Origin: an uncultured Clostridia bacterium
GTDB lineage: Bacteria; Bacillota; Clostridia; Oscillospirales; Ruminococcaceae
NCBI GenBank assembly: GCA_947389015.1
Contig: CANDVA010000002.1
Location: 1-64,000 of the forward strand
Direction of reading: 5' to 3'
Length of the DNA: 64,000 nt
Shown here piece by piece: positions 4,864 through 20,419 of the stretch (its first letter is position 1; the number at the start of each line of letters is the position of its first letter). Below the pieces are notes generated by a model. It saw only the letters and a program-made list of their open reading frames with translations, was not told the origin of the DNA and made no database searches. Made by a program: the position numbers and the translations under genes.

Positions 4864-6261
4864 TTACAACGGCACCGCCATAAGCTTATCGTCGATTATC
4901 GTTACCTTTGCCCTCGGCGTCGTCTCGGTAACGTCCAGCGTCAAAAAATTGACACAGAACTTGACCCCGGGGTAGATGACCCCCGTCACCTTGGCGCTCA
5001 GCGTGTCCTTGTTCTTGATGTCCTCTTCGAGCTGATCTATGAGAGCCTGCAATTCATTCTTGCGCATAGCGTGGAACAGCTTGTTCTGCGTTTCAGTGCG
5101 GTACGCTCTTTGCTGTACCTCGGTCATTTCGCCGCCCTGCGCAAGCTTGCGCTGTTTGAGAAATGTAAGATTTTTGATCGCCGCGTCAAATATGCGTATC
5201 GACTCCTTGAGATCCGCTTCCGCCTCGCGCTTTCTCGTGTACAGCACCGAGCCGTCGCCGATATACACCTCTGTCGCGGTGTACTTCTCCGAGCCGATAA
5301 TGCCCGCGTTCACGTCGTGCATAGACGTTACCCTTCCGCCCGAGATAACTCCGTGGTTTCCCTTTGCGGTTAGCGCGCCATAGCAGAACACGTTGCAGAA
5401 CGCGAACTGCTTGGACACTATATCGCCCTTCACGAATATCTCCGCGTTCTCGCAGAAGCCCACGTCGGCGTTACCGTCGCAGTTCAGCTTTGAGTTGATA
5501 CAGCCGCCGACGATAGTCACGTTGCCGCCCGCGGTTATCTCGCCGCCGAACACCGAGCCGTCGATCTTCACGTTCTTTCCCGCGTTGACCGAGAAGCCCT
5601 CCATAACGTTGCCCTTAATATGAACGTCGCCGAAAAAGCTGATATTTCCGACCGATATATCCAGGTCGGTCTTTATCGTCACCGCATTCTCGACCTGAAA
5701 GCATCCGTTGCCGAAAACGATATGACCGTCGCACGCCGCCACTACCTTCAATCCGTCAGTCGTAACGAGCGTATTCTTGCCGAGCGAGACCTTTGCGGGA
5801 TCTCCCGGCTCTGCGGGGATTACCTTGCCGAATATATCCACGCCCGGCACGCCCTCCTCGGGCTGCACGATATCGGCTATAATCTCACTCTTATGGATAG
5901 GCACGATCGCGTTCAGCTCGCGGTAGTCCGCGATACCGAACTCGTTCTGGTGCGGCTTGAGCTTATGATCCTTGTCGAACCTGAAGCTGATATACCCGTT
6001 CTTGCCCTTTTTCGGCGACGTAGCCACGGCAACGCACACCTGCAGGTCATACAAGCGCTCCTTTATGACGCGCTTTATATTGCTCTCGTCGATATTCGTC
6101 GTTATACCGAGCCGCGCTATCTCGCCGCAGACCTGATCGTAATTTACCTCCGCTCCGCCGTTCTGTGGAGCATGGAGTATCATATTCGCGACCCTGCCGT
6201 CGCTTTCACAGCTTATCTCAACCCATCCGTCAAGCTTTACAAACTGATCCTTATCCGCCAT
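4864..6261 (-). CDS. FapA (DUF342) family polymer-forming protein
   Basis: This 465-residue protein matches the flagellar-assembly-protein-A/DUF342 family. An N-terminal alpha/beta domain contains the segment EEGVPGVDIFGKVIPAEPGD (about 135-155). A long right-handed beta-helix follows (about 190-330), with repeated G-N-x-x-h-x-G-x-V rungs. A C-terminal coiled coil (about 345-420) comes before a final strand region. Family members are cytoplasmic and are linked to polar protein localisation and kinase control in some bacteria. There are no flagellar genes nearby, so the role here is open. The start ATG follows GGGGTGGA. No clear terminator was seen after the gene. Confidence 0.85.
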   Translation of the reverse strand: MADKDQFVKLDGWVEISCESDGRVANMILHAPQNGGAEVNYDQVCGEIARLGITTNIDESNIKRVIKERLYDLQVCVAVATSPKKGKNGYISFRFDKDHKLKPHQNEFGIADYRELNAIVPIHKSEIIADIVQPEEGVPGVDIFGKVIPAEPGDPAKVSLGKNTLVTTDGLKVVAACDGHIVFGNGCFQVENAVTIKTDLDISVGNISFFGDVHIKGNVMEGFSVNAGKNVKIDGSVFGGEITAGGNVTIVGGCINSKLNCDGNADVGFCENAEIFVKGDIVSKQFAFCNVFCYGALTAKGNHGVISGGRVTSMHDVNAGIIGSEKYTATEVYIGDGSVLYTRKREAEADLKESIRIFDAAIKNLTFLKQRKLAQGGEMTEVQQRAYRTETQNKLFHAMRKNELQALIDQLEEDIKNKDTLSAKVTGVIYPGVKFCVNFLTLDVTETTPRAKVTIIDDKLMAVPL

Positions 6262-6477
6262 AGTTCCACCCCTTATTTTCTAAGCAATTTTCGCTGTTTT
6301 TAGGAGACCGTTTTTTACCTTGATTTCACAGACGTTCTCCCTCGCCTTTTCAATGCTGTTTTATCCCGTTTTAAAGCGATTTTCGCGCTATTTTCGCAGA
6401 CATTTTCCGCCTGTGCTTTTCAGGTGATTTTCGTCATTTATTTCGGCGAATTTTCCGCCCTTATTTCACAGTAAATT
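6262..6477. other. Non-coding spacer with recurring short words
   Basis: This 216-base gap between two minus genes has no convincing ORF. It repeats ATTTTCGC at 6287, 6379 and 6390 and ATTTTCCGCC at 6402 and 6450, besides related variants. It probably holds the leader of the FapA gene; no clear sigma-A promoter was found. Confidence 0.4.
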
Positions 6478-7152
6478 TCAGCCCGGATTTCCAACCTCGG
6501 AATCGACCTCATTTATCAGCCCGATAACGTCCTCCAAAGAGCCCGCGCACGCATAAGCGAGATCCGACAGTTCCCCGTCGGGCGGCGTAAGATCGGGCAC
6601 CATTACCGTGACGCACCCCGCCGACGCCGCGGAACGCACCCCGTTCGGCGAATCCTCGAGAGCCATACATTCCCGCGGCTCGAGTCCGAGCTGACTTGCA
6701 GCATACAAATAAATATCGGGCTTGGGCTTGCCCTCCCCGACCATTGTCGCGCACACTATCTTATCAAAGCACCCGAAAATTCCCACTCGCGTAAGATAAT
6801 CCCTTGTGCGCTCGAGATCGGTCGCCGTAGCTATCGCGGCGGGTATTCCGTTCCCGTTCAGAAACGCCAGCAGCTCCTTTGCACCGCGTTTCAGCTTGAG
6901 AGGGTTTTGCGAAAGATATTCGTTCATAAGCTCCATTCTGCGCGAACGTATCTTCACGTAATCGAACTCCTCGCCGAATAGTCCCCGCAAATACGGTATC
7001 GCGAATTTTCTGTGCAGCGACCGTATCGCGAGCGCGTGCTCTCTCTCCATCGGGAACCCCGCCTCGTTCGCCGCCCGCACCCAGAACCGCACCAGCAGTT
7101 TTTCGGTATCGAGCAGAAGCCCGTCCATATCAAAGATAACAGCCTTGACCAT
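6478..7152 (-). CDS. HAD-IA family phosphatase (beta-phosphoglucomutase-like)
   Basis: This 224-residue protein has HAD motif I DMDGLLLD, motif II IATATD, motif III lysine in GEGKPKPDIYLYAA, and motif IV ALEDSPNGVRSAASAG. A small helical C1 cap lies between motifs I and II, as in beta-phosphoglucomutases and sugar-phosphate phosphatases. The ED-SxxG motif IV fits the phosphoglucomutase-like subgroup, but the substrate cannot be read from sequence. It has its own consensus promoter at 7188-7216 and a GAGGG ribosome site. Confidence 0.88.
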   Translation of the reverse strand: MVKAVIFDMDGLLLDTEKLLVRFWVRAANEAGFPMEREHALAIRSLHRKFAIPYLRGLFGEEFDYVKIRSRRMELMNEYLSQNPLKLKRGAKELLAFLNGNGIPAAIATATDLERTRDYLTRVGIFGCFDKIVCATMVGEGKPKPDIYLYAASQLGLEPRECMALEDSPNGVRSAASAGCVTVMVPDLTPPDGELSDLAYACAGSLEDVIGLINEVDSEVGNPG

Positions 7153-7187
7153 ACACTACCCTCAACAACAAACTACTATTCTATTTT

Positions 7188-7216
7188 ATTATATCACACT
7201 TGCATAAAAATGTCAA
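7188..7216 (-). promoter_or_regulatory. Consensus sigma-A promoter of the HAD gene
   Basis: On the minus strand, perfect TTGACA (7211-7216) and perfect TATAAT (7188-7193) are 17 bases apart, about 36 bases before the start codon. Confidence 0.85.
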
Positions 7217-7286
7217 TAATTTTTGGCTATATTTTATACACAATTTCACTTGCGAAAAAAATATATAAAAAAATTTGCAAAAATAC

Positions 7287-7315
7287 TTGAAATTTCCGTA
7301 TTATTGTGTTATAAT
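7287..7315 (+). promoter_or_regulatory. Sigma-A promoter of secG-rnr
   Basis: TTGAAA (7287-7292) and TATAAT (7310-7315) are 17 bases apart, about 54 bases before the secG start. The promoter diverges from the HAD promoter at 7188-7216. Confidence 0.85.
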
Positions 7316-7368
7316 TGTCAGGTATGGTATTATAAACATTTATTATATATTTGGAGGAAGTTCTTAAA

Positions 7369-7806
7369 ATGGGAATATTTGAAATTATCAGCGCGATCAT
7401 TCTGATCGTCGCATGTGTATTTATAGTCGTCGTGGTTCTTATGAAGGATACCAAAACGCAGATGTCGCAGACTATCTCGGGCTCGACCTCGGACAGCTAC
7501 TTCCAGAAAAACGCGGGACGCACCAAGGAGGCTATGCTCAATAAGGCGACTATCGCGGCGGCTATCGTGTTCTTCGCGCTCGCTCTCGGAGTAAATATCA
7601 TCAACGTTTATTGGGGCGCGGGAAAGGATAACGGCACCTCGTCAACACCGACCAGCTCCGTTTCCTCGGACAGCTCGACGGGCAGCGACAGCTCGGACAG
7701 CAATACAAGCTCCGAAAGCTCGACAGACAGCAATTCCGGCGACAGCAGCTCGTCAAGCGGCTCCGACAGTTCGGATAACAGCAGTGCGACAACGGATAAC
7801 GAATGA
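7369..7806 (+). CDS. secG: Preprotein translocase subunit SecG with long Ser/Asp-rich tail
   Basis: SecG is the small auxiliary subunit of the SecYEG channel. Residues 1-72 give the normal family fold: a first membrane helix (about 4-24), the conserved QTISGSTSDSYFQKN loop, and a second helix (about 50-70). About 70 further residues follow, nearly all Ser, Asp, Thr, Gly and Asn, whereas SecG usually ends soon after the second helix. Known SecG topology would place this tail outside the membrane. The start is ATG 7369, behind GGAGG at 7353-7357. It is followed by a terminator and by rnr, the common Firmicute order. Confidence 0.9.
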   Translation: MGIFEIISAIILIVACVFIVVVVLMKDTKTQMSQTISGSTSDSYFQKNAGRTKEAMLNKATIAAAIVFFALALGVNIINVYWGAGKDNGTSSTPTSSVSSDSSTGSDSSDSNTSSESSTDSNSGDSSSSSGSDSSDNSSATTDNE

Positions 7807-7824
7807 TAATAATAACAAACGACG

Positions 7825-7850
7825 GGGCAGTCCTTTAAGGCTGCCCTTTT
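7825..7850 (+). terminator. Terminator or attenuator between secG and rnr
   Basis: The stem GGGCAG/CTGCCC, extended by CCTT/AAGG across a one-base bulge, is followed by four T residues. The short T-run suggests partial read-through into rnr. Confidence 0.6.
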
Positions 7851-7902
7851 GAATAATTACGGATAAAATACGAAACATATTATATAAAGAGAGGAATTGC
7901 TT

Positions 7903-10020
7903 ATGAACAGGCTTAAAACCAACATACTCACCGCCCTGTACAAGTCGGAGGACGGGCTGACCGAAAAGGAGCTGATAAAGCTCCTCGACCTGCCGAAAAA
8001 GCTTGCCAAGAAGCTCTCGGACGACCTTGCGGGCATGAAGAAATTCGGCGACGTCACAAATAAAAAGGGCACATGGCGGCTGAAGAACGCCGACGACTAC
8101 TTCACCGCCGTTATCACGCGCGTTACACCGCGGTCGGGATTTATGACCGAGCAGGGAGAAATGCCCGTGGAGTACTTCGTTCGCGGGCGCGATATGTGCG
8201 GCGCTATCCCCGGAGACGTGGTATTGGCGAAGAGGATACTCGCAGCGGTCGAGGACAGAGATCCCGAGGCCTCCGTGCTCGCGGTGCTCGAGGAAAGCGA
8301 TATGCTGCTCACGGGCGTTATCGTCGCGGAGGGCAACCGCCTTATGGTGCTCCCCGACAAGCTCTGCGACGAGCCGCTGTATATCGCCAAATCGGGACAG
8401 AACCCGCTTCACGTCGGCGATAAGGTGGCGTTCTCGATAAAAAAGCGCGGCGAACGGCACTTCGACCATACCGTAGCGATAGCGGACAGCTTCGGCTCGG
8501 CTGATAACGCGAAAGCGGGCGCGGAGGCGTATATGCTCGTGAATAATCTGCATATCGAGTTCCCCGACGAGGTGCTTCATGAGGCGGCAAAGCTCGATAT
8601 CGACGAGCCCGACGCGGACGAGGTCGCAAGGCGGCTCGATCTGCGCGGCGAACCTATCTTCACGATAGATGGCGCTGACACCAAGGATATCGACGACGCG
8701 GTATCCATTGCGCGTATTGAGGGCGGCTACAAGCTCGGAGTGCATATCGCGGACGTTTCGCATTACGTCAAGAAAGGTTCGGCGCTCGACGGGGAAGCGT
8801 TCACGCGCGGAACGTCGATATACTACGCGGACAGGGTCGTTCCCATGCTCCCGAAGGAGCTTTCCAACGGCATCTGCTCGCTCAATCCGAATGTGGACAG
8901 ACTCGCGTTCTCCTGCCTTATGAACGTTTCTGCGGACGGAAAGCTGCTGAATTACCGCTTTGAGAAAACCGTTATCCGCAGCCGCGTCAAGGGCGTTTAC
9001 GCCGAAGTCAACCGTATTCTCGACGATACCGCCGACGACGGGATAAAGGCGAAATACGACCGCGTTATCGACCGCATACCGATAATGCGCGAGCTTGCGG
9101 AGATACTCGAAAAGAACCGCGTAAACCGCGGCGCTCCCGAGATAGATACCGTCGAGGCTAAAATAGTCACCGACGAGAACGGAATTTGCGTGGACGTAAA
9201 GCCGCGTGAGCGCGGGGTCGCCGAGCGCATCATCGAGGAGTTTATGCTTATGGCAAACAACGCGGCGGCGTCTCTCGCAATGAAAGAGAAGTTCCCGTTC
9301 GTGTACCGTATTCACGAAGCGCCCGCAATCGAAAAGCTGCTCGCGCTGGGCGATACACTGACGGCGCTCGGCGTGAACCCCGAGGGCATTTCCGAGCGCT
9401 CCACAGCCGCGGACCTAGCAAGGGTCATCAGCGACAGTAAGGACAGCGATAAGTATATCGTCATAAACCGCATAGTTCTGCGCACTATGATGAAAGCGAA
9501 GTACTCCGACGAGCCTCTCGGTCACTACGGTCTTGTGATGCCCGAATACGCGCATTTCACCTCTCCGATACGCCGATACGCCGACCTCGCGATACACCGC
9601 ATACTCACCGATTACGTCTACGCGCTGTCGACGGAAAAGCTCACGAAAAAATACAAGAAATTCGCTGCCGAAGCGGCAATGCAGGCGAGCAATACCGAGC
9701 TTTCCGCGGTGCGGTGCGAGCGCGAGTGCGAGAACCTGTATATGGCGGAGTATATGAAGAACCATATCGGCGAGGAGTACGAAGGCTTTATCTCGGGCGT
9801 TTCACCGAGCGGTATCTTCGTGGCGCTTGACAACACCGTCGAGGGAATGATCTCCGTGACGCGTATGCCGCTCGGCGAGTACGAGGTGCAGCACAGCGTT
9901 ATCCTCACGGGCGCGGCGAACGGCAAGGTGTTCACCGTCGGCGACAAGATCAAGGTCAAGTGTGTTTCCGTCAACGTAAACGGCGGCTTTATCGACTTTG
10001 ACTTCGCGGATAACGCATAA
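7903..10020 (+). CDS. rnr: Ribonuclease R
   Basis: RNase R is a processive 3'-5' exoribonuclease acting on structured RNA and in trans-translation. This 705-residue protein has an N-terminal winged-helix-like region (about 1-65), cold-shock OB domains (about 70-220), and the RNB catalytic domain (about 240-570). The RNB domain contains TIDGADTKDIDDAVSI with its metal-binding Asp cluster, and HFTSPIRRYADL. A C-terminal S1 domain is at about 615-700. The ATG at 7903 follows GAGGAA. smpB, often the next gene in this order, is absent here; a bidirectional terminator follows. Confidence 0.95.
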   Translation: MNRLKTNILTALYKSEDGLTEKELIKLLDLPKKLAKKLSDDLAGMKKFGDVTNKKGTWRLKNADDYFTAVITRVTPRSGFMTEQGEMPVEYFVRGRDMCGAIPGDVVLAKRILAAVEDRDPEASVLAVLEESDMLLTGVIVAEGNRLMVLPDKLCDEPLYIAKSGQNPLHVGDKVAFSIKKRGERHFDHTVAIADSFGSADNAKAGAEAYMLVNNLHIEFPDEVLHEAAKLDIDEPDADEVARRLDLRGEPIFTIDGADTKDIDDAVSIARIEGGYKLGVHIADVSHYVKKGSALDGEAFTRGTSIYYADRVVPMLPKELSNGICSLNPNVDRLAFSCLMNVSADGKLLNYRFEKTVIRSRVKGVYAEVNRILDDTADDGIKAKYDRVIDRIPIMRELAEILEKNRVNRGAPEIDTVEAKIVTDENGICVDVKPRERGVAERIIEEFMLMANNAAASLAMKEKFPFVYRIHEAPAIEKLLALGDTLTALGVNPEGISERSTAADLARVISDSKDSDKYIVINRIVLRTMMKAKYSDEPLGHYGLVMPEYAHFTSPIRRYADLAIHRILTDYVYALSTEKLTKKYKKFAAEAAMQASNTELSAVRCERECENLYMAEYMKNHIGEEYEGFISGVSPSGIFVALDNTVEGMISVTRMPLGEYEVQHSVILTGAANGKVFTVGDKIKVKCVSVNVNGGFIDFDFADNA

Positions 10021-10027
10021 AAAATAT

Positions 10028-10055
10028 CGCCGTATCGGTTTCGATACGGCGTTTT
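10028..10055. terminator. Bidirectional terminator between rnr and the HD-GYP gene
   Basis: A ten-base perfect stem CGCCGTATCG/CGATACGGCG with a four-base loop is followed by TTTT on the plus strand. On the minus strand it is followed by the T-rich ATATTTTTT. It separates two convergent genes. Confidence 0.8.
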
Positions 10056-10057
10056 CA

Positions 10058-11122
10058 TTATGTCGTTAATTCGTTATCCGCATCCTCGCGGCGCTTTTTC
10101 ACGATATCGTTTACGATACTGTTGAACGCTTCGAGCACCTTGGGATTGAACATTCCGCACTGCCCCTCGTTTATCATTTGTATCGCGGTGTCGGCGTCAA
10201 ACGCCGCCTTATACACTCTCGGCGAGGTCAAAGCGTCGAACACGTCCGCGACGGCAACGACCTGCGCCCATATCGATACCTCGTCGCCCTTGAGGCCGTC
10301 GGGATAACCGCGCCCGTCCCAGCGCTCATGGTGATGACGGCAGATATCGTAGCTGTAACGGTACACCTCGTGATCCATAATATCCTCGGGCATCTCCGCA
10401 AGGATATCGCAGCCCTTGACGGTATGTATCTTCATTATCTCGAACTCCTCGGGAGTGAGCCGTCCGGGCTTTTTCAGTATGCTGTCGGGTATCGCGACCT
10501 TTCCTACGTCGTGAAGTATCGACGCGGTGCCTATCTTCACTATGGTGGACTTATCCAGATGATACTCGGGGAACATCTCGCTCACCTTGGTCATCAGCTT
10601 TATAGTGACGCTCTTTATGCGCTTTACGTGCTCGCCCGACTCGCAGTCGCGGAACTCGATAAGCGTAGCCAGCGTCTCAACCATTTGGTCGTTGATCTTG
10701 GACATTTTTTCAACGCTCTCGTTGACCATATCAACAAGCTCGTTCCTGTGACGGTAAAGCTCAATAATGTTGCCGATACGCGCCTTGATAAAGCACATAC
10801 GGAACGGCTTGGAGATTATATCCACCGCGCCGAGATTGTACGCGCCCGTAAGCATCTGCATATTGTCCGCGGCGGTGATGATGAACACGGGAATATTGTA
10901 AATTTTTCCCGTCCTGTTAAGCTCCGACAGCACGCCCATTCCGTCCATGACGGGCATTATCAGGTCGAGCATAACGGCGATTATACTGTTGTCCTCATTT
11001 ATGATGTCGAGAGCCTGCTGCCCGTTTTCCGCCTCAATGATGTTGTACTCGTCCTTAAAAAGCTCCGCAAGCAAAACGCGGTTGATCTCCTGATCGTCAA
11101 CGACCAAAATTGAATTCTTCAC
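10058..11122 (-). CDS. Response regulator with HD-GYP phosphodiesterase domain
   Basis: This 354-residue protein is RpfG-like. A receiver domain (about 3-120) has the DD pair, phospho-acceptor Asp in VMLDLIMP and the conserved Lys in SKPF. A short coiled linker (about 125-160) and an intact HD-GYP domain (about 155-345) follow, with ILHDVGK, HHERWDGRGYPDG and VADVFDALTS. The family cleaves cyclic di-GMP. The start is GTG at 11122, behind GAGGGG. The gene follows the Hpt gene by 17 bases and is the last gene of a unit that begins with the FtsK-like gene, so Hpt-to-receiver phosphotransfer within the operon is likely. No histidine kinase lies nearby. Confidence 0.92.
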   Translation of the reverse strand: MKNSILVVDDQEINRVLLAELFKDEYNIIEAENGQQALDIINEDNSIIAVMLDLIMPVMDGMGVLSELNRTGKIYNIPVFIITAADNMQMLTGAYNLGAVDIISKPFRMCFIKARIGNIIELYRHRNELVDMVNESVEKMSKINDQMVETLATLIEFRDCESGEHVKRIKSVTIKLMTKVSEMFPEYHLDKSTIVKIGTASILHDVGKVAIPDSILKKPGRLTPEEFEIMKIHTVKGCDILAEMPEDIMDHEVYRYSYDICRHHHERWDGRGYPDGLKGDEVSIWAQVVAVADVFDALTSPRVYKAAFDADTAIQMINEGQCGMFNPKVLEAFNSIVNDIVKKRREDADNELTT

Positions 11123-11139
11123 AAGAAATCACCCCTCAC

Positions 11140-11490
11140 TCACATATACTTTTTAATACAGTCGATAAGGTCACGCTGGATCTCAAGCGTCTTTTCCAAC
11201 AGCTCCTTAGCCTTTTCGGGCTTATCATCGCGGAAAAGGTTCACCATTTCGGTGTAATTGTTGTACAGCGGCGTAAGTGAAAGATTGCCTACCACGCCCT
11301 TTAAGGTATGCGCGTTCGACAGCGCCGTATCGAGGTCGCCCGACTCCACATAGGGCATAACGGGCGCGTCCTCTACCACCTTCGGCAGCTTTTTGAGCAT
11401 ACGCTCATACAGCGCCGAGTTATTCATAAATCTTACAAGAGCGTCATCGGTGTCCACACCGAGCGACTTCAGATCTTCTATCAGTCCCAT
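11140..11490 (-). CDS. Stand-alone Hpt phosphotransfer protein
   Basis: This 116-residue helical protein is built of one histidine phosphotransfer domain. The motif AHTLKGVVGNL carries the phosphorylated His, with the Lys-Gly typical of the family. Hpt proteins relay phosphate between a hybrid kinase and a receiver. Here the receiver is probably the HD-GYP response regulator encoded next. The start is ATG 11490, because GGAGG lies eight bases upstream; a TTG at 11505 would fall on the ribosome site. The FtsK-like gene ends 21 bases upstream. Confidence 0.88.
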   Translation of the reverse strand: MGLIEDLKSLGVDTDDALVRFMNNSALYERMLKKLPKVVEDAPVMPYVESGDLDTALSNAHTLKGVVGNLSLTPLYNNYTEMVNLFRDDKPEKAKELLEKTLEIQRDLIDCIKKYM

Positions 11491-11511
11491 ATTACCGACC
11501 TCCAAAAATAA

Positions 11512-14500
11512 TCAAACCGAATACGTGAGCAATGTAAGCTCGTCATAATCATCGGACAGCCTGAACGCGTTCTCGGGGAGCTCGCAGTTCGAGTCGCGGA
11601 GTACCTTCTCCGCCTCGGCGAACGGGCACGGGAACACGATCTTATGTCTGAACAGCGAAATAAAGCCCGTCGCGAGCTGAGCCGCGCTTCCCGACACGAA
11701 CATAAAGTGCGCTCCGAGCCGCGAGCCCTTTACCAGTACGCGCTTCATATCACCGAGACAGTCCTCGGCATGCATTGCCGCGAGCAAATGATCTCCGCCC
11801 AGCACTATCTCGAACGACGATATGCGCTTGCCCGCCGCAATATCAGCCGCCATCGCCCTAATGCGCGATACAGCCTCGTCGCCCGTAAGCACGTTCACGC
11901 CCTCGAGAACGCCCGCGCTCATCAGCTCCGCATACACGGGGTCGCCGCGCCATGTGAGCACCTCCACGGGCTTGTTCTGCGCTGCCAGCGAATGCAGCGC
12001 CGCCTTCACCGTAAGCGCAGCGCTTGTCTTTTCGCGCTCCGGAGCGACCGCCAGCAGGTTCTCGCCGAACTCCTCGTACAGACGTATCGGGTATTCCGCT
12101 CTGAAACGGCACGGCTCGCCGAGGAACAGCAGGGTCTCGTCCGCGCCCTTAGCCGCGATCATTTCGCCCTGTGCCGCCGCGTGGTCGCGGTGAACCGCGC
12201 GGAGCTTTCTGTTGGCAAGTATCGGGTGCTTGTTGACATATTCGTCATAGCCTGTCCTGTACTCGGTAACCGCGATAAATCTGTTTTCCATAACCGCCTG
12301 AGCGACAAGCATACGCACCATTACCAGACCGTCCTCATTACCCTCGGACGCGGTGAACGCGCAGCCGTCGGGAACCTTCTTGAGGGACTCGATCTCGTTC
12401 TCATACAGCTTGATATGACCGAACATCTCACGGACGCCGCTGTCACAGCCCGCAACAGCCGCCGCGCAGTGTACTGTAACGTTCTCAAAGCACGCGGGAC
12501 GCTTTCCGTTCTCAAGGAACGCCTCCGAGGTCAGCACGAAGTGAATTCCGCAGTCGGCACATCTTCTGAAAATGCCCGCGAGCTTTACGGTAAAGCTTCT
12601 TCCGAAATATCTCGGAGCGCCGCCCAGAATTTCAAGCAGCCCCGAAAATTCATTGATAACGACGAACACTCTCGGCATATACACATTTTCGGGTACGGCG
12701 GAATAGTTTTCCCAACCGTTCTTGTTGAACGCAACAGTGCGTTTTTCAAGCTCGGCGGATATAACGTCAATAAAGTCGAACGCCGTTTCGCCGTCGAAGT
12801 CGGAAACTGCGTATCTGATGTGAGCCGCGGGCTTCTCCGAGTACTTCATCAGTCCGCCGTCGCCGCAGTCGTACAGCCACAGCTCCGCATCGTCGGGATG
12901 AGCACGCTCGATTATCTGCGTGATTATCCTGTCGGCGAGCATTTGTCTGTCGCCGCCGCTCTTGCCGCAGATAAAGGTTATCCCGCCGCCGACGTCCATA
13001 TTCACGGGACTGCTGTCGACGCTCACGCCGATCTTTACCTCGGGCAGCTTGCGGCTGCCCTTGCGCGGTCTGCCGTCAGCAGGCTGAGATACGGGTCTCG
13101 GCGCGGGCTTTGGCGCTTCGGCAGCAGGCTTCGGCTGAGCAACAGGCTTTTCGGGCTCAGTTTTCACGGGCTCGGTGATATGCTCGGGCACGTGCGCAGG
13201 CTCAACGCGCTGCTCTACGGGCTTAGACTCGGGAGCCGCCTGCACCGTCCGAACAGGTTCGGGAACGGGGCTGACGTGCTCGTGAACTTCGGGCGTTTCG
13301 GGCTCGGATATCACGGAAGAAAGCTCCGATACCACCGAAACGCTGACCTCCTTCTCCTCGGGAGTGGGCCGCGGAAGATTGAACAGAATATGCGCTGGAA
13401 CAGGCTCGCCGTTTTCCATAAGACGAACCTCGTCGGGTATCTCCTCGTCGGGACGCGTTTCATATCCATGCTGAACCGCGGGTCTTACGGGCTCGGCATA
13501 TGTGCCCACCGCAACTGGCGTCGGGTGAACCGCCTCCGGCTCGGGGGTATGCTCCGCGTGAGCCGCCTGCTGACGGCGCTGATCAACGTAAACGCGGCGG
13601 ATATCCTCGGGAATATCTGAGGGCGCGGAGTACCAGAACAGGCTTTCGCGCGCGTCCTCGATCCAGAAGCCGCCGTTTCTGCTGCGGATAGAGGTCGCGA
13701 GCGTGCGAACCTCCTTCTCGACGGGAGTTTCGTCCGACGAAGCGCCGTGAGTGAGCACGACAAGCACGCCGTTCTGCCGCGCGCTTCTGCACACGGAAAC
13801 AGCCTTGTCGAGCATATCGTCCATATAATTCTCGGGGAAGCCGTTCAGCACGAGCACGCGCGACACCTTGTCCGGAGTAGGCGAGGACTGCGCAGCCGAC
13901 ACAAACTCGCCGAGCTTAGCCTCCGCGTCGGATATTGACTGCGGAACGGTGATAAACGGATTTACGCCCTTGCCGAGCGCCGCTATATGACCGAGACCGT
14001 CCGCGGTGAATGTAGACGGGTCGCAGAACATCATATCGGTGATATCCTGCCCGATATACTTTATAAGATTGATCAGCAGACGCTGAATGCCGCCCATAAG
14101 ATACGTCTGATTGCGCTCGTCATAGTCGAGGAACAGCACGCCGCCCTTATCGGTCGGCACCTGATAAGGTGCGCCGATAGTACGCGCCGCCGCGTTATAC
14201 TCGCCGTTAGAGGACGCGGAAAGCTCAATTTCCACCTCCATAGGTACCGACAGCTTCACACGGCGCTGACCGATACTTATAAAATCCTTTGACGGCAGCT
14301 CAACCGTCCCGGGACTGTTGAACGCGGACTTATCGAATACCAGCAGCTTGAGGTACTCCTTGAAATCGTCCGACTGTATGTAAGCCTTGACCTTCTCGTC
14401 GTGCTGTTCCTTGCGGTCATTGAGCGCGGCAACGTCGCTGTCGTACTGACGCTTTGCCTGCACCTTGCTGCCATCGATAAGGTGCTTGGTCTGTTCGATC

Positions 14501-14865
14501 TTCTGCTCGTAAAACTTTATCTGACCCGTGACCTTTGTATACAGGGTCTCGGCGTTGGGGTCGTTATGAGAATCGAGCTTTATGGTCTGACGTATGCTCT
14601 CGAGCTGACCCGCCGAGGTCTCGAAAGGAGCGGGTGCTTCCTCGAGACCGTCGGGCTGAGCGTGCTCCTTAGCATAATCGAGAAGATAATCGAGCTTATG
14701 CATTTTCTCGTGTATCTCGCCTATTTTTTTGTTCAGATCCTCGTCGGAGGAGCTGCAATAATCGTTGTATTCCTTGAAAGCGGCGTCCATCTCCGAGGAT
14801 ATCTGCTTTTCCTCCTGAGCGAGCGCCATAAACTTGCCAAGCATTTCGTTTACTAAATCTGCCAT
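11512..14865 (-). CDS. FtsK/EccC-like protein with degenerate Walker A and B motifs
   Basis: This 1117-residue protein has an N-terminal coiled coil (about 1-170), an alpha/beta region (about 190-455), a Pro/Glu/Val-rich linker (about 460-615), an FtsK/SpoIIIE-like fold (about 620-870) and a second ATPase-like fold (about 880-1117). The first fold keeps family landmarks such as ELWLYDCGDGG, ELEKR and MPRVFVVI. Its Walker A is G634-K-S-G-G-D-R640-Q641 and its Walker B is VVIN738-E, so Lys, Ser/Thr and Asp are replaced. It probably does not hydrolyse ATP there and may be a scaffold. ATG 14865 follows AAGGAG. It is the first gene of the unit with Hpt and HD-GYP genes; promoter 14935-14963. Confidence 0.75.
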   Translation of the reverse strand: MADLVNEMLGKFMALAQEEKQISSEMDAAFKEYNDYCSSSDEDLNKKIGEIHEKMHKLDYLLDYAKEHAQPDGLEEAPAPFETSAGQLESIRQTIKLDSHNDPNAETLYTKVTGQIKFYEQKIEQTKHLIDGSKVQAKRQYDSDVAALNDRKEQHDEKVKAYIQSDDFKEYLKLLVFDKSAFNSPGTVELPSKDFISIGQRRVKLSVPMEVEIELSASSNGEYNAAARTIGAPYQVPTDKGGVLFLDYDERNQTYLMGGIQRLLINLIKYIGQDITDMMFCDPSTFTADGLGHIAALGKGVNPFITVPQSISDAEAKLGEFVSAAQSSPTPDKVSRVLVLNGFPENYMDDMLDKAVSVCRSARQNGVLVVLTHGASSDETPVEKEVRTLATSIRSRNGGFWIEDARESLFWYSAPSDIPEDIRRVYVDQRRQQAAHAEHTPEPEAVHPTPVAVGTYAEPVRPAVQHGYETRPDEEIPDEVRLMENGEPVPAHILFNLPRPTPEEKEVSVSVVSELSSVISEPETPEVHEHVSPVPEPVRTVQAAPESKPVEQRVEPAHVPEHITEPVKTEPEKPVAQPKPAAEAPKPAPRPVSQPADGRPRKGSRKLPEVKIGVSVDSSPVNMDVGGGITFICGKSGGDRQMLADRIITQIIERAHPDDAELWLYDCGDGGLMKYSEKPAAHIRYAVSDFDGETAFDFIDVISAELEKRTVAFNKNGWENYSAVPENVYMPRVFVVINEFSGLLEILGGAPRYFGRSFTVKLAGIFRRCADCGIHFVLTSEAFLENGKRPACFENVTVHCAAAVAGCDSGVREMFGHIKLYENEIESLKKVPDGCAFTASEGNEDGLVMVRMLVAQAVMENRFIAVTEYRTGYDEYVNKHPILANRKLRAVHRDHAAAQGEMIAAKGADETLLFLGEPCRFRAEYPIRLYEEFGENLLAVAPEREKTSAALTVKAALHSLAAQNKPVEVLTWRGDPVYAELMSAGVLEGVNVLTGDEAVSRIRAMAADIAAGKRISSFEIVLGGDHLLAAMHAEDCLGDMKRVLVKGSRLGAHFMFVSGSAAQLATGFISLFRHKIVFPCPFAEAEKVLRDSNCELPENAFRLSDDYDELTLLTYSV

Positions 14866-14934
14866 ATTTTTTCTCCTTCTGGGCTTCGATGATACAAGCG
14901 CGTGTATCACGGTCAAAACCATGCCTATGTAATA

Positions 14935-14963
14935 ATTATACCTAAAAAAAACGCGCGTGTCAA
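14935..14963 (-). promoter_or_regulatory. Consensus sigma-A promoter of the FtsK-like/Hpt/HD-GYP unit
   Basis: On the minus strand, perfect TTGACA (14958-14963) and perfect TATAAT (14935-14940) are 17 bases apart. Between the promoter and the start codon is a seven-base hairpin TGATACA/TGTATCA (14890-14909), which could be an operator or leader structure. Bases 14964-15087 show nothing further. Confidence 0.85.
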
Positions 14964-15087
14964 TAGATTTTATTAACTTTGTACAATATTTTGTGAAATG
15001 TTTTCGTTTACGGAGTAAATATTGACGGAAATGGCGTGGAATGGGTATTACGGGATTTTTTGGTAAAGCAAATTAGGTTATTAGTTT

Positions 15088-15386
15088 TGTATATCAGAAT
15101 TTAGCGCAGTAACACTATGACCCAAAAATCGGGATTCCAAAGGGACTGGTCCCTTTGGCGGGATGCAAGGGCAGAGCCCTTGCCGGGTTCGGGCGGAGCC
15201 CGAAATGCCGCGTAGCGGCAAAAATAAAGAGCGCTAAAAGGGCTTGGGGAAAAACAAGAGTTTTTCCCCAAATCGGTGATTTTGCCAACAGGCAAAATCA
15301 CCGATAAATCACTTTTTTCTGCCGTTGGCAGAAAAAAGTGATCCGCGCTCTATGCAACACCTTACTGATATAAATTCCGATTTACA
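15088..15386. mobile_element. MITE-like hairpin-mosaic element with terminal inverted repeats
   Basis: Imperfect 25-base terminal inverted repeats lie at 15088-15112 and 15362-15386, with 20 of 25 positions paired by eye. Between them are stacked hairpins: 15137-15158, 15166-15182, 15189-15205, 15206-15220, 15244-15271, 15272-15305 (15-base perfect stem) and 15308-15342 (16-base stem). The last three are enclosed by AGAGCGC (15228-15234) and GCGCTCT (15345-15351). There is no transposase, so it would be non-autonomous. The right end matches the element at 1-228. It fills the gap between the FtsK-like promoter and the VanY-like gene. Confidence 0.7.
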
Positions 15387-15392
15387 CCGACT

Positions 15393-15422
15393 AAAAAACC
15401 GCCGCACCAAACTGTGCGGCGG
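15393..15422 (-). terminator. Intrinsic terminator after the VanY-like gene
   Basis: On the minus strand the nine-base stem CCGCCGCAC/GTGCGGCGG with a six-base loop is followed by six T residues. It begins ten bases after the stop codon at 15432. Confidence 0.9.
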
Positions 15423-15431
15423 TCAATATTA

Positions 15432-16463
15432 TTACATCGGTTCCACGCCGAGGAACTCCTCGAGAGTAAGACCGCTGTCGTAAACCAGCTTAGCCGTGCT
15501 CTTGCCGAGCCAGCGGATATGCCACGGCTCGTAATCGTAGCCCGTTTTGTGCTCGCAGCCCTTTGGAAAACGGATAACGAAACCGTACTTGCAGCAGTTA
15601 TCGGTCAGCCATCTGCCCTCCTCGGTATTGACGTAATCCTCGCTGAGCTCGCCGATATCCATTGCCAGTCCCGTCTGATGCTCGCTGTGACCGGGCTGCG
15701 CCGAGTACATGATCACTTTGTCGTAATCGTCTATCTCGCAGTAGTAGTCGAAAAGCTCCGTCTGAAGCTCGTAGCTGCGGTAACCCGAAACCAGCGGCAG
15801 AGAATACCCGGTGTCCTCGCGCATTTGCAGCAGCGCATTGTACGCGTCGTCTATGACCAGTCCAAGCTCCGCGCCGTAATCCTCGGGAACGGAATACTTT
15901 TTATTGACGATCAGCACTCCCCCGACGTAGGTCACGCCGTCCTTTTCGACGGGAGCGGGCGCTTTTATCTTCGCCAGGCACGTACCCTCGCAGTTGATAT
16001 CCTCAAAGGAATTCAGCACCGTAAGCAGACCCGCGCCGTATATCTCACCCTTCTCGCGGATACCGAGAAAACCGCCGAGCTCGAGACTTCCGTCCAGTAT
16101 CAGCTTTCCGTTCAGCAGGAGATTTCCGCCGCTCTGTATCTTTATCGAGCCGCCCCTCTCGCAGTTGACCGTGCCGTCGACCGTAAACTCCGCGCCGTCC
16201 CGTATGTACAGCGTCTCGCCGCTCTTTACCGTAAGCGTTTCCGCTGCCGCGATAGTCATATCCTCGGAGACTATCTTGTCGCTGCGGACGGGAGCGTTAG
16301 CCTGAACGTCCGAGGAACTGCTGCTCGGCTCGCTTACCGTGTTTATCACTATCAACGACGAAACGCCGCTCGTAGGACGCGAATTCGTCGGCTGCGCGTC
16401 ACAGCCGCATACGGTAACCGTTAAAGCCGACAGCAAAGCGCATATTTTCAAATATCTTTTCAT
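15432..16463 (-). CDS. VanY-like D-Ala-D-Ala carboxypeptidase lipoprotein with beta-helix stalk
   Basis: This 343-residue protein has a lipoprotein signal with lipobox VCGC (Cys21), a low-complexity linker to about residue 55, and a stalk (about 60-165) of short repeated strands such as GGSIKIQSGGNLLLNGKL, which looks like a small beta-helix. An M15B peptidase domain (about 195-335) follows, with SGYRSYE, the zinc motif HQTGLAMD and the catalytic motif EPWH. It would trim D-Ala from peptidoglycan stem peptides at the outer membrane face. No vancomycin-resistance genes lie nearby, so a wall-maintenance role is more likely. It is flanked by its own promoter and terminator. Confidence 0.88.
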   Translation of the reverse strand: MKRYLKICALLSALTVTVCGCDAQPTNSRPTSGVSSLIVINTVSEPSSSSSDVQANAPVRSDKIVSEDMTIAAAETLTVKSGETLYIRDGAEFTVDGTVNCERGGSIKIQSGGNLLLNGKLILDGSLELGGFLGIREKGEIYGAGLLTVLNSFEDINCEGTCLAKIKAPAPVEKDGVTYVGGVLIVNKKYSVPEDYGAELGLVIDDAYNALLQMREDTGYSLPLVSGYRSYELQTELFDYYCEIDDYDKVIMYSAQPGHSEHQTGLAMDIGELSEDYVNTEEGRWLTDNCCKYGFVIRFPKGCEHKTGYDYEPWHIRWLGKSTAKLVYDSGLTLEEFLGVEPM

Positions 16464-16497
16464 TGCGTTTCCCCCTTTTTATTCCCCTGTTTTCTAC

Positions 16498-16526
16498 ATT
16501 ATAACACCATTATCCGAAAAAAGCAA
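16498..16526 (-). promoter_or_regulatory. Sigma-A promoter of the VanY-like gene
   Basis: On the minus strand, TTGCTT (16521-16526) and perfect TATAAT (16498-16503) are 17 bases apart. Confidence 0.75.
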
Positions 16527-16563
16527 TAGCGATATCTGACGAAAACCTTACGATTTTGTGAAA

Positions 16564-17991
16564 TCAGCCACAGACCTCAATAATCGCATGCGCGAACAAT
16601 ACCGCGTCCTTAAGCAGTTCCTCAACGGTGATGAACTCATTCGCGCCGTGCATATGATAATCCGTATCTCCACTGCCGTCACTCGGTTGCCCGGCATCCG
16701 TGTCAGGCTTTGGTGACGGCTCCACAACATCCGTGTTGTGCCGCTCCGCGCCGAACGCAACGCCGCCCTCGATATTATGTACGTAAGTGCCGCCGCCTAT
16801 GGCGATACAAGCGCCCTTTTCACCCTCAACGCGCTCGTATACCGACAGCAGCTGCTTTACGAACTCGCTGTCCTCGGGAACGACGTGCGGCTCGTTGCCC
16901 AAAACTATCTCATACTTCAATTTATGGCTTTCCAACGCGGAGCATACCTTATCCTTGACCGTCTGAAGATCGACACAGGTCGGGAAACGTATGTCCACCG
17001 TGCCCTCGCACTCGCCCGACGGCATAATAGCCAGAGTGCTCAAAACACAGGTGAGCGCGCCGCTTTCGTCGGAGCACTTTAAGCCGAGGGAAGCACCGTC
17101 CGTTTCACCGAACGGGAACAGCTTTTCGATACCCCGAAGTCCCGGCTCGTCTGTCACGCGGTTCATAAGCGAAAGCAGCGCCGTCACCGCGTTCACGCCC
17201 TTTTCGGGGGTTGAAGCGTGAGCCGCCCTGCCGTCGCAGGATATAAAAACGTTGTCGCCGCGTTCGGTCACGGTGAATTTCGCCTCAGACTCCTCGGGAA
17301 TAGCCGCCTTGACTTTATCGGCAGTAACGCGGCGCATTATCGCCTTTGCCTTGTCGGCGACAGCGTTCGGAGTAACTCCGCCGCGGAACTCCATATAGTT
17401 GCCGCCCGTGTTCCCGCTGAACCGCACGCCCAACATTCCCTTTTCGATGTTGATAACGGGAAAGCTGCCGTCGGGCGTGAACACCTTGGGAGGGAACTTC
17501 GCGTGCTCCTTGTACAGCTCCAAATCCTTCGAGCCGTTCTCCTCGTCCGTGCCGAGTATCAGCCGAACGCCCTTTTTAAGCGGTATGCCGAGCGATTTCA
17601 CCGCGTTCATAGCCCACAGCGCCGCCAGCGCGGGACCCTTGTCGTCGACAGCGCCGCGCCCAAACAGCACGCCGTTCTTCTCTGTAAGCGTGAACGGATC
17701 GGTATTCCAGCTGTCCTCAAGCGCGGGAACGACGTCCAGATGCGCCAGAATACCCAGCTCGGGATCTTGACCGTAATCCGCGCACAGCACGGCGTCGCCT
17801 ATCACCGACGTCGCAAACCCCATTTTTTGGCAGTACTCCTCCGCTTTCAGCAGCGCCCTCTTAGCCTCGGCTCCGAACGGCGCGCCGCGCTCGGGCTCGT
17901 CCTTTACGCTCGGTATAGCGACAAGCTCCGCCAGATCCTTAACGATCTCGTCCTTGTGCGAATAAATAAACTCCCGTATTTTCTCGTCCAT
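16564..17991 (-). CDS. M20 family dipeptidase (PepV/Sapep-like)
   Basis: This 475-residue zinc peptidase has the M20 metal and catalytic sites: HLDVVP (about residue 84), RGAVDDKGP (about 117), GTDEENGSKD (about 151) and the C-terminal HGANEF. The lid domain lies between about 185 and 380. PepV-like enzymes release amino acids from dipeptides and some Xaa-His substrates in the cytoplasm. The length is normal for the family. The ATG follows AGGAGG by five bases. It lies 71 bases after murC in the same direction, with only a hairpin between, so the two may be cotranscribed. Confidence 0.9.
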   Translation of the reverse strand: MDEKIREFIYSHKDEIVKDLAELVAIPSVKDEPERGAPFGAEAKRALLKAEEYCQKMGFATSVIGDAVLCADYGQDPELGILAHLDVVPALEDSWNTDPFTLTEKNGVLFGRGAVDDKGPALAALWAMNAVKSLGIPLKKGVRLILGTDEENGSKDLELYKEHAKFPPKVFTPDGSFPVINIEKGMLGVRFSGNTGGNYMEFRGGVTPNAVADKAKAIMRRVTADKVKAAIPEESEAKFTVTERGDNVFISCDGRAAHASTPEKGVNAVTALLSLMNRVTDEPGLRGIEKLFPFGETDGASLGLKCSDESGALTCVLSTLAIMPSGECEGTVDIRFPTCVDLQTVKDKVCSALESHKLKYEIVLGNEPHVVPEDSEFVKQLLSVYERVEGEKGACIAIGGGTYVHNIEGGVAFGAERHNTDVVEPSPKPDTDAGQPSDGSGDTDYHMHGANEFITVEELLKDAVLFAHAIIEVCG

Positions 17992-18013
17992 ATTTCCTCC
18001 TGATTTAATAGCC

Positions 18014-18054
18014 GCGCAATTTCGGCGAGCCGTGCTCCGCTCGCTTCAATCCGC
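18014..18054. other. Hairpin between murC and the dipeptidase gene
   Basis: A perfect six-base stem GCGAGC/GCTCGC (18025-18030 and 18039-18044) has outer arms that pair imperfectly. There is no T-run, so it is not a clear terminator. It resembles single modules of the hairpin-mosaic elements and may be a small repeat remnant or processing site. Confidence 0.4.
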
Positions 18055-18062
18055 TATGCTGT

Positions 18063-19442
18063 TTATTTTTTCATCATCTCGATCATCATATCGGCGACCT
18101 TGTACACGTCGCCGCAGCTCGTAGTAATTACCAGATCGCCCTCTTGAACATTATCCACGACGTACCGCGCGACCTCCTCGAACGTCGGAAACCACACGCA
18201 GCCGTCTATCTTAGCAGCTAAGTCCTTGGAATAAATGTTATACGTGTTCTTCTCGCGGCTGCCCATTATCTCGGTGAGCACTACCTTATCCGCGACAGAC
18301 AGCGCCTCGGCAAACTCGTCGAGCAGCGTCGCCGTTCTCGAATAGGTAAACGGCTGATGAACGCACCACACGCGTTTAAACGACATCTCCTTTGCGGTTT
18401 TGAGCGTCGCGGCGATCTCCGCGGGGTGATGTCCGTAGTCGTCCACGAACACGACCCCTTTGACCTCCGCCAGCTTCTCAAACCGCCGCATAGCGCCCGT
18501 GAAACTCTCCATACCGCGCTGCAAAGCGTCGAGCGGAATCCCCGCGGAATACGCCGCCGCGCAAGCCGCGACCGCGTTATACACATTATGAAGCCCCGGG
18601 ACGTTGACCTCGATACGGCACAGCTCCTCTCCCTTTTTCACAAGCGTAAACTCGCGCCTGAAGTCGGATATCTGCCGTATATCCGCGGCATAGAAATCGT
18701 TGGTCTCGCTTGCTCCGTAGGTCACAAGCGCCGCGGCGGTATTGCACCTTCTGACGACCTCCATGGTGTTCTCATCGTCGCCGTTCGCGATTATCAGATC
18801 GGTCGTAATGCCGCAGAACTTCGCGAACGAAGCCTTGAGATTATCCATGGTCTTGAAATAATCCATATGATCCTCGTCGATATTGAGGATAACGGAGATA
18901 TTCGGGAACAGATGCAGAAACGTGTCCTTGAACTCGCACGCCTCGCACACCATATACTCCGACTTCCCCGCTCGTCCGCTGCCGCCGATAGCGCGGAGTT
19001 TTCCGCCTATGACCGCCGACGGGTCGACGTCCGCCGCAAGCAGTATCGACGTAAGCATTGACGAGGTCGTGGTCTTGCCGTGCGTTCCCGAAACACAGAA
19101 CGCTTTCGAGAACTGCTCCGTCACCAGTCCCAGCAGCTCCGCCCTTTCCGCGAGCCGAACGCCGTTTTCCGCAGCCCTGCGCGCCGCGATAAGCTCGGGA
19201 TTATCCTCCATTATCGCCGCCGAGAACACAATCAGATCAGCGCCCTCGATATTCTCCGCTCGCTGACCGAGCGTCACGGGAATGCCCATTCCCCGCACAG
19301 CCTCGAGCGTCGCGGTCTCGTTATTGTCCGAGCCTGTAAGGTAATACCCCTTTGTATGCAGTATCTGCGCCAACGGATACATACCGCTGCCGCCGATACC
19401 TATAAAGTGTATATGCTTTTTGCCCGTAAGGAAATTTTCCAC
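18063..19442 (-). CDS. murC: UDP-N-acetylmuramate--L-alanine ligase
   Basis: MurC adds L-alanine to UDP-MurNAc using ATP, in the cytoplasmic stage of peptidoglycan synthesis. This 459-residue protein has the N-terminal Rossmann motif GIGGSGMYPLA, the ATP loop GTHGKTTTSSML (about 115-127), the ILNIDEDHMDYF segment, and the C-terminal ligase domain with DDYGHHPAEI. The start is GTG at 19442, eight bases after AGGAGG. It is divergent from spoVG. No convincing sigma-A promoter was found in the 179-base gap; a TTGACA exists on the minus strand without a matching -10. Confidence 0.96.
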   Translation of the reverse strand: MENFLTGKKHIHFIGIGGSGMYPLAQILHTKGYYLTGSDNNETATLEAVRGMGIPVTLGQRAENIEGADLIVFSAAIMEDNPELIAARRAAENGVRLAERAELLGLVTEQFSKAFCVSGTHGKTTTSSMLTSILLAADVDPSAVIGGKLRAIGGSGRAGKSEYMVCEACEFKDTFLHLFPNISVILNIDEDHMDYFKTMDNLKASFAKFCGITTDLIIANGDDENTMEVVRRCNTAAALVTYGASETNDFYAADIRQISDFRREFTLVKKGEELCRIEVNVPGLHNVYNAVAACAAAYSAGIPLDALQRGMESFTGAMRRFEKLAEVKGVVFVDDYGHHPAEIAATLKTAKEMSFKRVWCVHQPFTYSRTATLLDEFAEALSVADKVVLTEIMGSREKNTYNIYSKDLAAKIDGCVWFPTFEEVARYVVDNVQEGDLVITTSCGDVYKVADMMIEMMKK

Positions 19443-19561
19443 AGCAAATTCCTCCTAAAAATGATATCCAAAAAATATATGCCGCGCCCGGAAAATTTAT
19501 GAATAATCCGCCGCGTAATTTCCAAAAATAGTATTGTCAAAATTCTTTTAAAGGATACGGA

Positions 19562-19594
19562 GGTCAAACGCAGCCGAATCCGGCTGTTTTGACC
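19562..19594 (+). promoter_or_regulatory. Hairpin in the spoVG leader
   Basis: An inverted repeat of 33 bases has an inner stem CAGCCG/CGGCTG around AATC and outer arms GGTCAAA/TTTGACC. It lies 27 bases before the spoVG start, close to its GGAGG site. There is no T-run after it, so it is more likely an mRNA leader structure or operator than a terminator. Confidence 0.5.
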
Positions 19595-19621
19595 GAGGTC
19601 TCCTTGAAAACGGAGGAAAAA

Positions 19622-19879
19622 ATGGAAATCAGCGACATCAAAATCAGAAAGACAATGCACGAGGGCAGGCTCCGCGCGGTGGTCTCGATAACCATCGACA
19701 ACGCCATCGCCATACACGACATCAAGCTCGTTCAGGGCGACGAGCGTATGTTCGTGGCAATGCCCAGCCGCCGCGAGGACAGCGGTGTCTTCCGCGACAT
19801 CATTCACCCTATCTCCTCGAATATCCGCGAGGAGATCGAGAATAAAATTCTCACCGCCTACAATGACTATATCCAGTAG
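19622..19879 (+). CDS. spoVG: Septation regulator SpoVG
   Basis: SpoVG is a small nucleic-acid-binding regulator that affects septation, sporulation and capsule or virulence genes in Firmicutes. This 85-residue protein begins MEISDIKIRK and contains VSITIDNAIAIHDIKL and MPSRREDSGVFRDIIHPI, all family hallmarks. The ATG at 19622 follows GGAGG; the upstream in-frame extension is not conserved in the family and covers the leader hairpin. The gene converges on the Nudix gene with three bases between stops and no visible terminator. Confidence 0.95.
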   Translation: MEISDIKIRKTMHEGRLRAVVSITIDNAIAIHDIKLVQGDERMFVAMPSRREDSGVFRDIIHPISSNIREEIENKILTAYNDYIQ

Positions 19880-19882
19880 CTT

Positions 19883-20419
19883 TCACTTAGCCAATAACAG
19901 CTTGGTTTTCAGAATGGCTATCTGCGTTTTTGCGTCTTCGATCTCATTATTCATTATCATTTCCGCCGCTTTTTCAAGCGGTATTTTTTCTACGTCGAGG
20001 AACTCGTCCGCGTCGAGCTTTTGCGTACCGTAGTTCAGTCCGCGCGCTAAGTACATATGTATCACCTCCGTGTCATAAGCGGGGGTGGGGATAAGGCAGC
20101 CCAGATAGTCGAACTTGTCGCAGGTGCAGCCCGTCTCCTCTTTAAGCTCGCGAAGTCCGCACGCGCGGTGATCCTCGCCGAACTCCAGCTTGCCCGCGGG
20201 TATCTCCGGCAGCACCTTTTGATGCGGATAGCGGAACTGCCGAACGAACAGCACGTTATCCTCTTCGTCGAGCGCCACGACGCACACTCCGCCCGGGTGC
20301 TTTATCACCTCGCGCGTTACCGTATCGCCGTTCTCGACCTCCGCCTTGTCCACAAAAAGCTTGACTATTTTTCCGTCAAACTTCTGCTCGCTCTCAATGG
20401 TTTTCTCATTCAAGTGCAT
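19883..20419 (-). CDS. Nudix hydrolase, ADP-ribose pyrophosphatase type
   Basis: This 178-residue protein has a complete Nudix box: G, five residues, E, seven residues, then RELKEETGC (about residues 92-114). EIPAGKLE before the box is typical of ADP-ribose pyrophosphatases (NudF/YqkG), which cleave ADP-ribose to AMP and ribose 5-phosphate. The start is ATG 20419 (MHLNEK), with AGGAGA upstream; the longer reading starting at 20518 runs through a hairpin region and lacks a ribosome site. It lies downstream of the YfhO gene on the same strand. Confidence 0.9.
   Translation of the reverse strand: MHLNEKTIESEQKFDGKIVKLFVDKAEVENGDTVTREVIKHPGGVCVVALDEEDNVLFVRQFRYPHQKVLPEIPAGKLEFGEDHRACGLRELKEETGCTCDKFDYLGCLIPTPAYDTEVIHMYLARGLNYGTQKLDADEFLDVEKIPLEKAAEMIMNNEIEDAKTQIAILKTKLLLAK

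Follow-up and report, generated by a model that had tools for sequence, protein, structure and literature searches.

In the RpfC-RpfG system of Xanthomonas, an Hpt domain hands phosphate on to the receiver that controls an HD-GYP phosphodiesterase, and the PA1396 system of Pseudomonas has a free HPt between hybrid kinase and regulator (both from an excerpt of PMC4504480). Among the EccC/EssC (TsxC) ATPases, a helix takes the place of the P-loop in the domain of unknown function (DUF) of EccC5, and the motifs of the DUF, D2 and D3 are also degenerate in true EccC/EssC proteins of several species (excerpt of PMC11154593); the excerpted text of a survey of type VII secretion system (T7SS) variants mentions no unanchored TsxC (PMC11217815). 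The present analysis concerns an operon, wholly on the minus strand, in a 64,000-nt stretch of a contig from an uncultured Clostridia bacterium (hereafter the window), in which a soluble EccC/EssC-like pseudo-ATPase (gene 1) is followed by a free-standing Hpt protein (gene 2) and a REC-HD-GYP response regulator (gene 3); genes 2 and 3 are called the pair, and all three the trio. The gene set, its promoter, the layout and distribution of the operon, the conservation of its residues and the fold of its products were established by computation. On balance, the locus was probably formed within one clade, when the end of an RpfG-type relay came to follow a scaffold gene that was already resident and descends from a T7SS-type motor. 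A literature search, with most subscription literature outside its scope, returned no description of an EccC-like/Hpt/REC-HD-GYP gene set, and titles and abstract openings gave no link of type VII secretion or EssC to cyclic di-GMP (c-di-GMP).

The operon and its products

The preliminary description had proposed one consensus promoter driving three genes at a spacing of 17–21 bases. This was confirmed: the promoter is a perfect TTGACA-17-TATAAT and, given the chosen starts, the gaps measure 21 bases between genes 1 and 2 and 17 bases between genes 2 and 3. The list of open reading frames gives a longer frame for gene 1, from 14922, and a TTG at 11505 as the start of the Hpt gene; the starts chosen were the ATG codons at 14865 and 11490, respectively. 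Seven promoter sites with at most one mismatch were found in the window, four of them perfect, where shuffles expect 0.07; the operon promoter is real but not unique in the window. In 24 loci tested from the 33 genomes with gene 1, the 220 bases preceding the gene were scanned; the highest-scoring promoter-like site there matched 12/12 consensus positions in 20 loci, 11/12 in three and 9/12 in one. The window has no good internal promoter before the Hpt gene, where the score of the best site (8/12) was reached by 54 of 100 shuffles. Co-expression of the trio is well supported.

Table 1. Coordinates of the operon, the domains of its first product and the flanking signals (window positions)
Feature	Position	Strand	Remarks
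Sigma-70 type promoter, TTGACA-17-TATAAT	14963..14935	-	12/12 consensus positions
Gene 1, soluble EccC/EssC-like pseudo-ATPase, 1117 aa	11512..14865	-	ATG behind AGAAGGAG
Long helices, stalk-like, residues 1–183	14317..14865	-	structure models; best conserved part
D1, degenerate FtsK/EccC-type domain, residues 195–435	13561..14283	-	structure model
Linker, proline-rich, residues 438–600	13066..13554	-	mostly predicted local distance difference test (pLDDT) <50; variable length
D2, FtsK motor fold, P-loop lost, residues 609–860	12286..13041	-	model and alignment
D3, third ATPase-like domain, without P-loop, residues 864–1113	11527..12276	-	model and alignment
Gene 2, free-standing Hpt, 116 aa	11140..11490	-	ATG behind GGAGG; expected phosphoacceptor His61
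Gene 3, REC-HD-GYP response regulator, 354 aa	10058..11122	-	GTG start
Stem-loop, 10-pair stem and T-rich tails	10028..10051		between operon and convergent RNase R gene

Gene 1 has three FtsK-type domains, the first of them degenerate, as in the EccC/EssC family, and members of that family were its best matches by sequence and by fold among solved structures; D1 fits FtsK/EccC domains generally, and not the EccC DUF exclusively. A Pfam scan returned nothing above cut-off (best E 0.044), and the NCBIfam EssC model (TIGR03928) matched in part, scoring 34 bits where its cut-off is 778.4. The alignment and profile of gene 1 took in 21 of the 33 genomes that possess it. The D2 P-loop, GxxxxGK[ST], was kept in 0/21 of these orthologues; its lysine position was occupied by Arg in 17 and by Lys in four, in which the preceding Gly is missing, while the Walker B Asp was replaced by Asn or Ser in 20/21. 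Nor was a P-loop present in D3 across the same alignment. The earlier proposal of an FtsK-like pseudo-ATPase of EccC-like build was thereby borne out by sequence, fold match and motif loss. An ordinary FtsK/SpoIIIE identity was rejected: a separate, strong FtsK_SpoIIIE match (221.6 bits) is present in the genome, whereas no Pfam family matched gene 1 above cut-off.

The same description had suggested that the module could couple a membrane or secretion-type complex to c-di-GMP. A hydropathy scan of gene 1 found no transmembrane stretch, the highest 19-residue value being 1.44, compared with 1.89 in an EssC-like protein of another genus member (G008), and a search of its own genome (96% complete) for WXG100 genes (PF06013) returned none at E 0.001, although divergent ones could escape it. 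Both results count against a membrane or secretion machine. Gene 1 was not classed as EccC/EssC, since the membrane anchor, the P-loop and the equivalog score were all tested and none was found or reached; it is similar to that family but would not function as the known members do, and a cytosolic scaffold independent of nucleotides is its most likely role. Identity between trio rows and other rows was 66% in the helical part and 51% in D1, against 35% in D2 and 44% in D3. The helical part and D1 probably carry the function of gene 1, which would be older than its link with the relay.

Starting from a weak match to the N-terminal profile in G421 (19 bits), three distant relatives were identified, one each in G421, G481 and G760; their profile could be aligned to the gene 1 profile over 834 columns (probability 100, E 5.8e-41). 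Like gene 1, with which they align over its residues 114–1090, these ATPases have no transmembrane stretch; unlike gene 1, all three retain the GKST of the D2 P-loop and the DEF of Walker B. The G481 gene is accompanied by VWA, PP2C and kinase genes, with two WXG100-like genes directly after the motor gene (L129 5211–14767); the G760 gene by ThiF, JAB and M48 peptidase genes, with a WXG100-like gene a few genes off (L130 5536–16689); and the G421 gene by those for a 1446 aa protein and small helical proteins without a WXG100 match (L126 3793–13980). Among five small neighbours scanned, WXG100 was the best Pfam match for three (two in G481, one in G760), all under the curated cut-off (E 5e-3, 2.8e-4 and 1.5e-5), and was not the best match for the two from G421. 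Therefore, the WXG100 link stands on two clusters. By PADLOC, the region of the P-loop domain matched Mad8 and SspH in the three relatives, with HerA in addition in G760; no PADLOC anti-phage family matched gene 1 at E 0.001. When the three-row profile built from the intact relatives was run against the phylum, it gave 0/398 at E 1e-40, which is no evidence of absence. The three clusters are reminiscent of T7SSc or conflict systems, except that their motor is unanchored.

Among the products of the pair, the Hpt protein passed its Pfam cut-off narrowly (25.3 bits against 24.6), and the regulator scored 106.6 bits with HD_5 and 76.3 with Response_reg. His61, Lys64 and Gly65 of the Hpt were invariant in 11/11 aligned rows, the row of G023 being a fragment. 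The regulator kept Asp9, Asp10, Asp53, Thr83 and Lys105 of its receiver, and the HD, His233, HH, GYP and Asp293 positions of its effector, in 12/12 rows; these are presumably the working positions of their families. The pair had been described beforehand as a lone Hpt and an HD-GYP regulator, and its sequences agree: the Hpt is free-standing, the receiver should be phosphorylatable to judge by its residues, and the HD-GYP motif is complete. The genome contains 14 GGDEF matches, 13 of them above cut-off, and 12 HisKA matches, of which four were scanned and all proved to be hybrid kinases with receiver domains.

A second Hpt system was observed on contig 27 of the same genome, where genes for a REC-HD-GYP protein, an Hpt and a hybrid kinase overlap (L109 6501–11069). 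Against the Hpt profile of the trio, its Hpt reached 37 bits, and similar weak matches occurred in most other genomes of the genus. Given this second operon, relays from Hpt to REC-HD-GYP are not foreign to the genus. Where the pair stands apart from gene 1, a second REC-HD-GYP-like stretch follows in six of seven loci, including that of G001, in which the regulator beside the Hpt has 717 aa and two tandem REC-HD-GYP units (L099 7432–9585).

Distribution and history of the linkage

Two samples were searched, 43 genomes from the genus and 394 from the order. Gene 1 or a piece of it was found in 33/43 genus genomes: the N-terminal profile hit 32 of them once each, and G011 was recognised by its C-terminal part; two of the loci lie in named genomes, labelled 'uncultured Clostridia bacterium' and 'Oscillospiraceae bacterium'. 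The N-terminal profile matched only 4/394 genomes of the order, three in this genus and the weak distant relative in G421, and so conservation does not extend across Clostridia. The gene 1 search matched 30 of 61 genomes, and two matches were dropped as orthologues, being by eye an EssC-like protein (G008) and a SpoIIIE/FtsK-type translocase (G037). The former, in a genus member without gene 1, is 1534 aa long with its P-loop intact by eye (L058 6916–11520).

Close Hpt orthologues were defined as scoring at least 120 bits, a threshold set after a gap had been seen (the next best scored 76), and occurred in 26/43 genus genomes. The trio was adjacent in 16/43 (G000, G009, G014, G018, G020, G023, G024, G025, G027, G029, G034, G036, G062, G063, G064 and G066), with gene order and direction constant throughout. 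In G032, gene 1 and the pair were both present, each at a contig end, while in G035 the Hpt stood alone within the stretch fetched. An Hpt orthologue without gene 1 was seen only in G003 (69% complete). More distant Hpt genes (74–76 bits) occurred near REC-bearing genes in G016, G019 and G031. Where gene 1 stood alone, its neighbours were housekeeping-like by eye in the eight loci viewed.

The history of the linkage was followed on two trees. The gene 1 tree was built on N-terminal regions from 31 of the 33 genomes, G011 and G019 lacking that region, and a single change explained the trio rows (98/94 support). The MurC tree comprised 38 of the 43 genomes; G005 and G025, where the gene is in pieces, and G008, G030 and G061, which have no clear orthologue, were omitted. 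It placed the trio genomes in a 17-row fork (89/91 support), with G032 and G011 also inside, and the genomes without gene 1 formed one clade of seven plus G003 (7/8 together). These trees suggest roughly one event, either a gain of the linkage or its loss elsewhere; 16 of 18 clade members keep it, contig ends cut the locus in G032, and the link is broken in G011.

Other elements were noted in the window and its genome. A scan of window positions 6000–20000 against Rfam gave no match. An intergenic palindrome-rich element lies at 15130–15290. A 15-base core of it turns up elsewhere in this genome, on the contigs of L109 and L137, and also close to the pair of G029 (L035); the element is probably a dispersed repeat. 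On contig 4 of this genome, a 1096 aa HerA/FtsK-like ATPase lies beside two genes that are dynamin-like by eye (L125 6092–13420), possibly another unusual system.

Explanations of the linkage

According to the probable explanation, the three genes form an operon under a strong and probably constitutive promoter. One or more hybrid histidine kinases of the cell would pass phosphate to His61 of the free Hpt, and thence it would reach Asp53 of the regulator's receiver; phosphorylation there would alter the activity of the HD-GYP domain, which would hydrolyse c-di-GMP. Gene 1 would be the cytosolic descendant of an EccC/EssC-type motor that lost nucleotide binding, a scaffold whose own task is older and rests mainly on D1 and the stalk of helices. 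Within a single clade of the genus, genes 2 and 3 would have come behind the scaffold gene and now be made in step with the scaffold, which may also touch the relay.

Several observations weigh against this explanation. A promoter-like site of 10/12, seldom reached by shuffles, precedes the Hpt gene in 5/15 trio loci tested. The genome offers four hybrid kinases as candidates to feed the Hpt, none of them inside the operon. The model of the whole of gene 1 (predicted template modelling score 0.39) does not fix the arrangement of the domains. Gene 1 lacks a close Hpt in 8/33 genomes (G002, G005, G007, G010, G011, G016, G019 and G031), six of which are at least 96% complete, and the pair stands apart from gene 1 in seven (G001, G006, G013, G022, G030, G033 and G065). 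In G011, within the trio clade, the gene next after gene 1 is unrelated and runs convergently, and a search of this 86% complete genome yielded no Hpt. The Hpt gene of G023 is interrupted (L041 8125–8474) and gene 1 of G027 is split over two frames (L042 11546–15614), through decay or assembly error. Upstream neighbours, named by eye as VanY-like, dipeptidase and MurC genes, likewise stay beside gene 1, and adjacency alone therefore proves little. The expectation that the three genes co-occur in related genomes was consequently upheld in part: adjacency is real but essentially confined to one clade, and an obligate partnership of gene 1 with the pair is refuted.

Mere operon fusion, in which two unrelated units share one strong promoter with no functional link, is a possible but doubtful alternative. 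It would accommodate the occurrence of gene 1 and the pair each without the other nearby, the broken link in G011, the likewise conserved flanking gene order and the abundance in the window of promoters of this grade. It fits less well with a single origin on the gene 1 tree followed by long retention, and with the finding that an Hpt gene remote from gene 1 mostly has a strong promoter-like site of its own (10–12/12 in 7/8 loci).

It is unlikely, though worth weighing, that the scaffold organises the relay physically, with the Hpt, the regulator or both docking on gene 1, which would gate phosphotransfer or place the phosphodiesterase. Such docking corresponds to the proposal of the preliminary description, minus its membrane element. 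Tight co-directional linkage in 16/18 clade members, despite about 50% identity in gene 1, would suit such docking, as would the distribution of gene 1 and the Hpt orthologue among the 43 genomes (both 25, gene 1 only 8, Hpt only 1, neither 9; Fisher p = 0.0003). However, this p value was set aside as not resting on independent events, since the genomes without gene 1 cluster on the MurC tree. Gene 1 without a close Hpt also persists in at least two groups, besides the loss of the link in G011. Furthermore, no trio-specific conservation was detected in any domain of gene 1 when nine trio rows were compared with ten others, two deep rows being omitted; each domain was less conserved within the trio rows than within the others.

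A bolder version is improbable: that the motor turned into a signalling hub, in which the EccC-like protein, having given up ATP use and WXG100 clients, would hold the Hpt and control the phosphorelay that sets c-di-GMP. The Hpt would then sit where EccC held helical WXG100 hairpins, an analogy drawn from the G481 motor gene being followed by two WXG100-like genes, that of G421 by a small helical protein and gene 1 by the Hpt. Finally, a role for gene 1 as ATPase in a functional type VII-like secretion system, whose small helical substrates would have escaped notice, is very improbable. The EccC/EssC domain order speaks for it, as do the WXG100-like genes in the clusters of two of the three distant relatives. 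Against it, gene 1 has neither a transmembrane stretch nor a P-loop in D2 or D3, and the PF06013 search of its genome was empty, a result tempered by the sub-cut-off scores of the relatives' own WXG100-like proteins.

Comparison with known systems

The relay end of the operon is of a known kind. Insofar as the excerpted accounts describe those systems, the trio is like RpfC-RpfG in leading from Hpt to REC-HD-GYP and like PA1396 in having a free Hpt; it is unlike RpfC-RpfG in that its Hpt is free-standing, its operon has no kinase and an EccC-like gene comes first. The contig 27 system shares the REC-HD-GYP and Hpt genes with the trio but has its own kinase and no EccC-like gene.

If gene 1 does touch the relay, this would be, to our knowledge, the first known bridge between T7SS-type proteins and c-di-GMP. 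Independently of that, an EccC/EssC-type protein without membrane anchor, P-loops or evident secretion system, conserved behind near-perfect promoters, lets the non-ATP roles of EccC-type ATPase-like domains be studied in isolation.

Gene 1 is like EccC/EssC in its stalk-like helices, its degenerate FtsK-type domain and its two further FtsK-type domains, and in the structure model a helix is predicted at the P-loop place of D1, as in the EccC5 DUF of the excerpted account. It differs in having no transmembrane stretch, no FHA match and no P-loop in D2 or D3, in the long disordered linker between D1 and D2, and in a genome where no WXG100 gene was found. Since true EccC/EssC proteins, as excerpted, already carry degenerate motifs, the full loss in gene 1 extends a known trend. 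Here a relay of familiar type shares an operon with an apparently ATP-dead relative of the EccC-like motors, which is an odd new variant.
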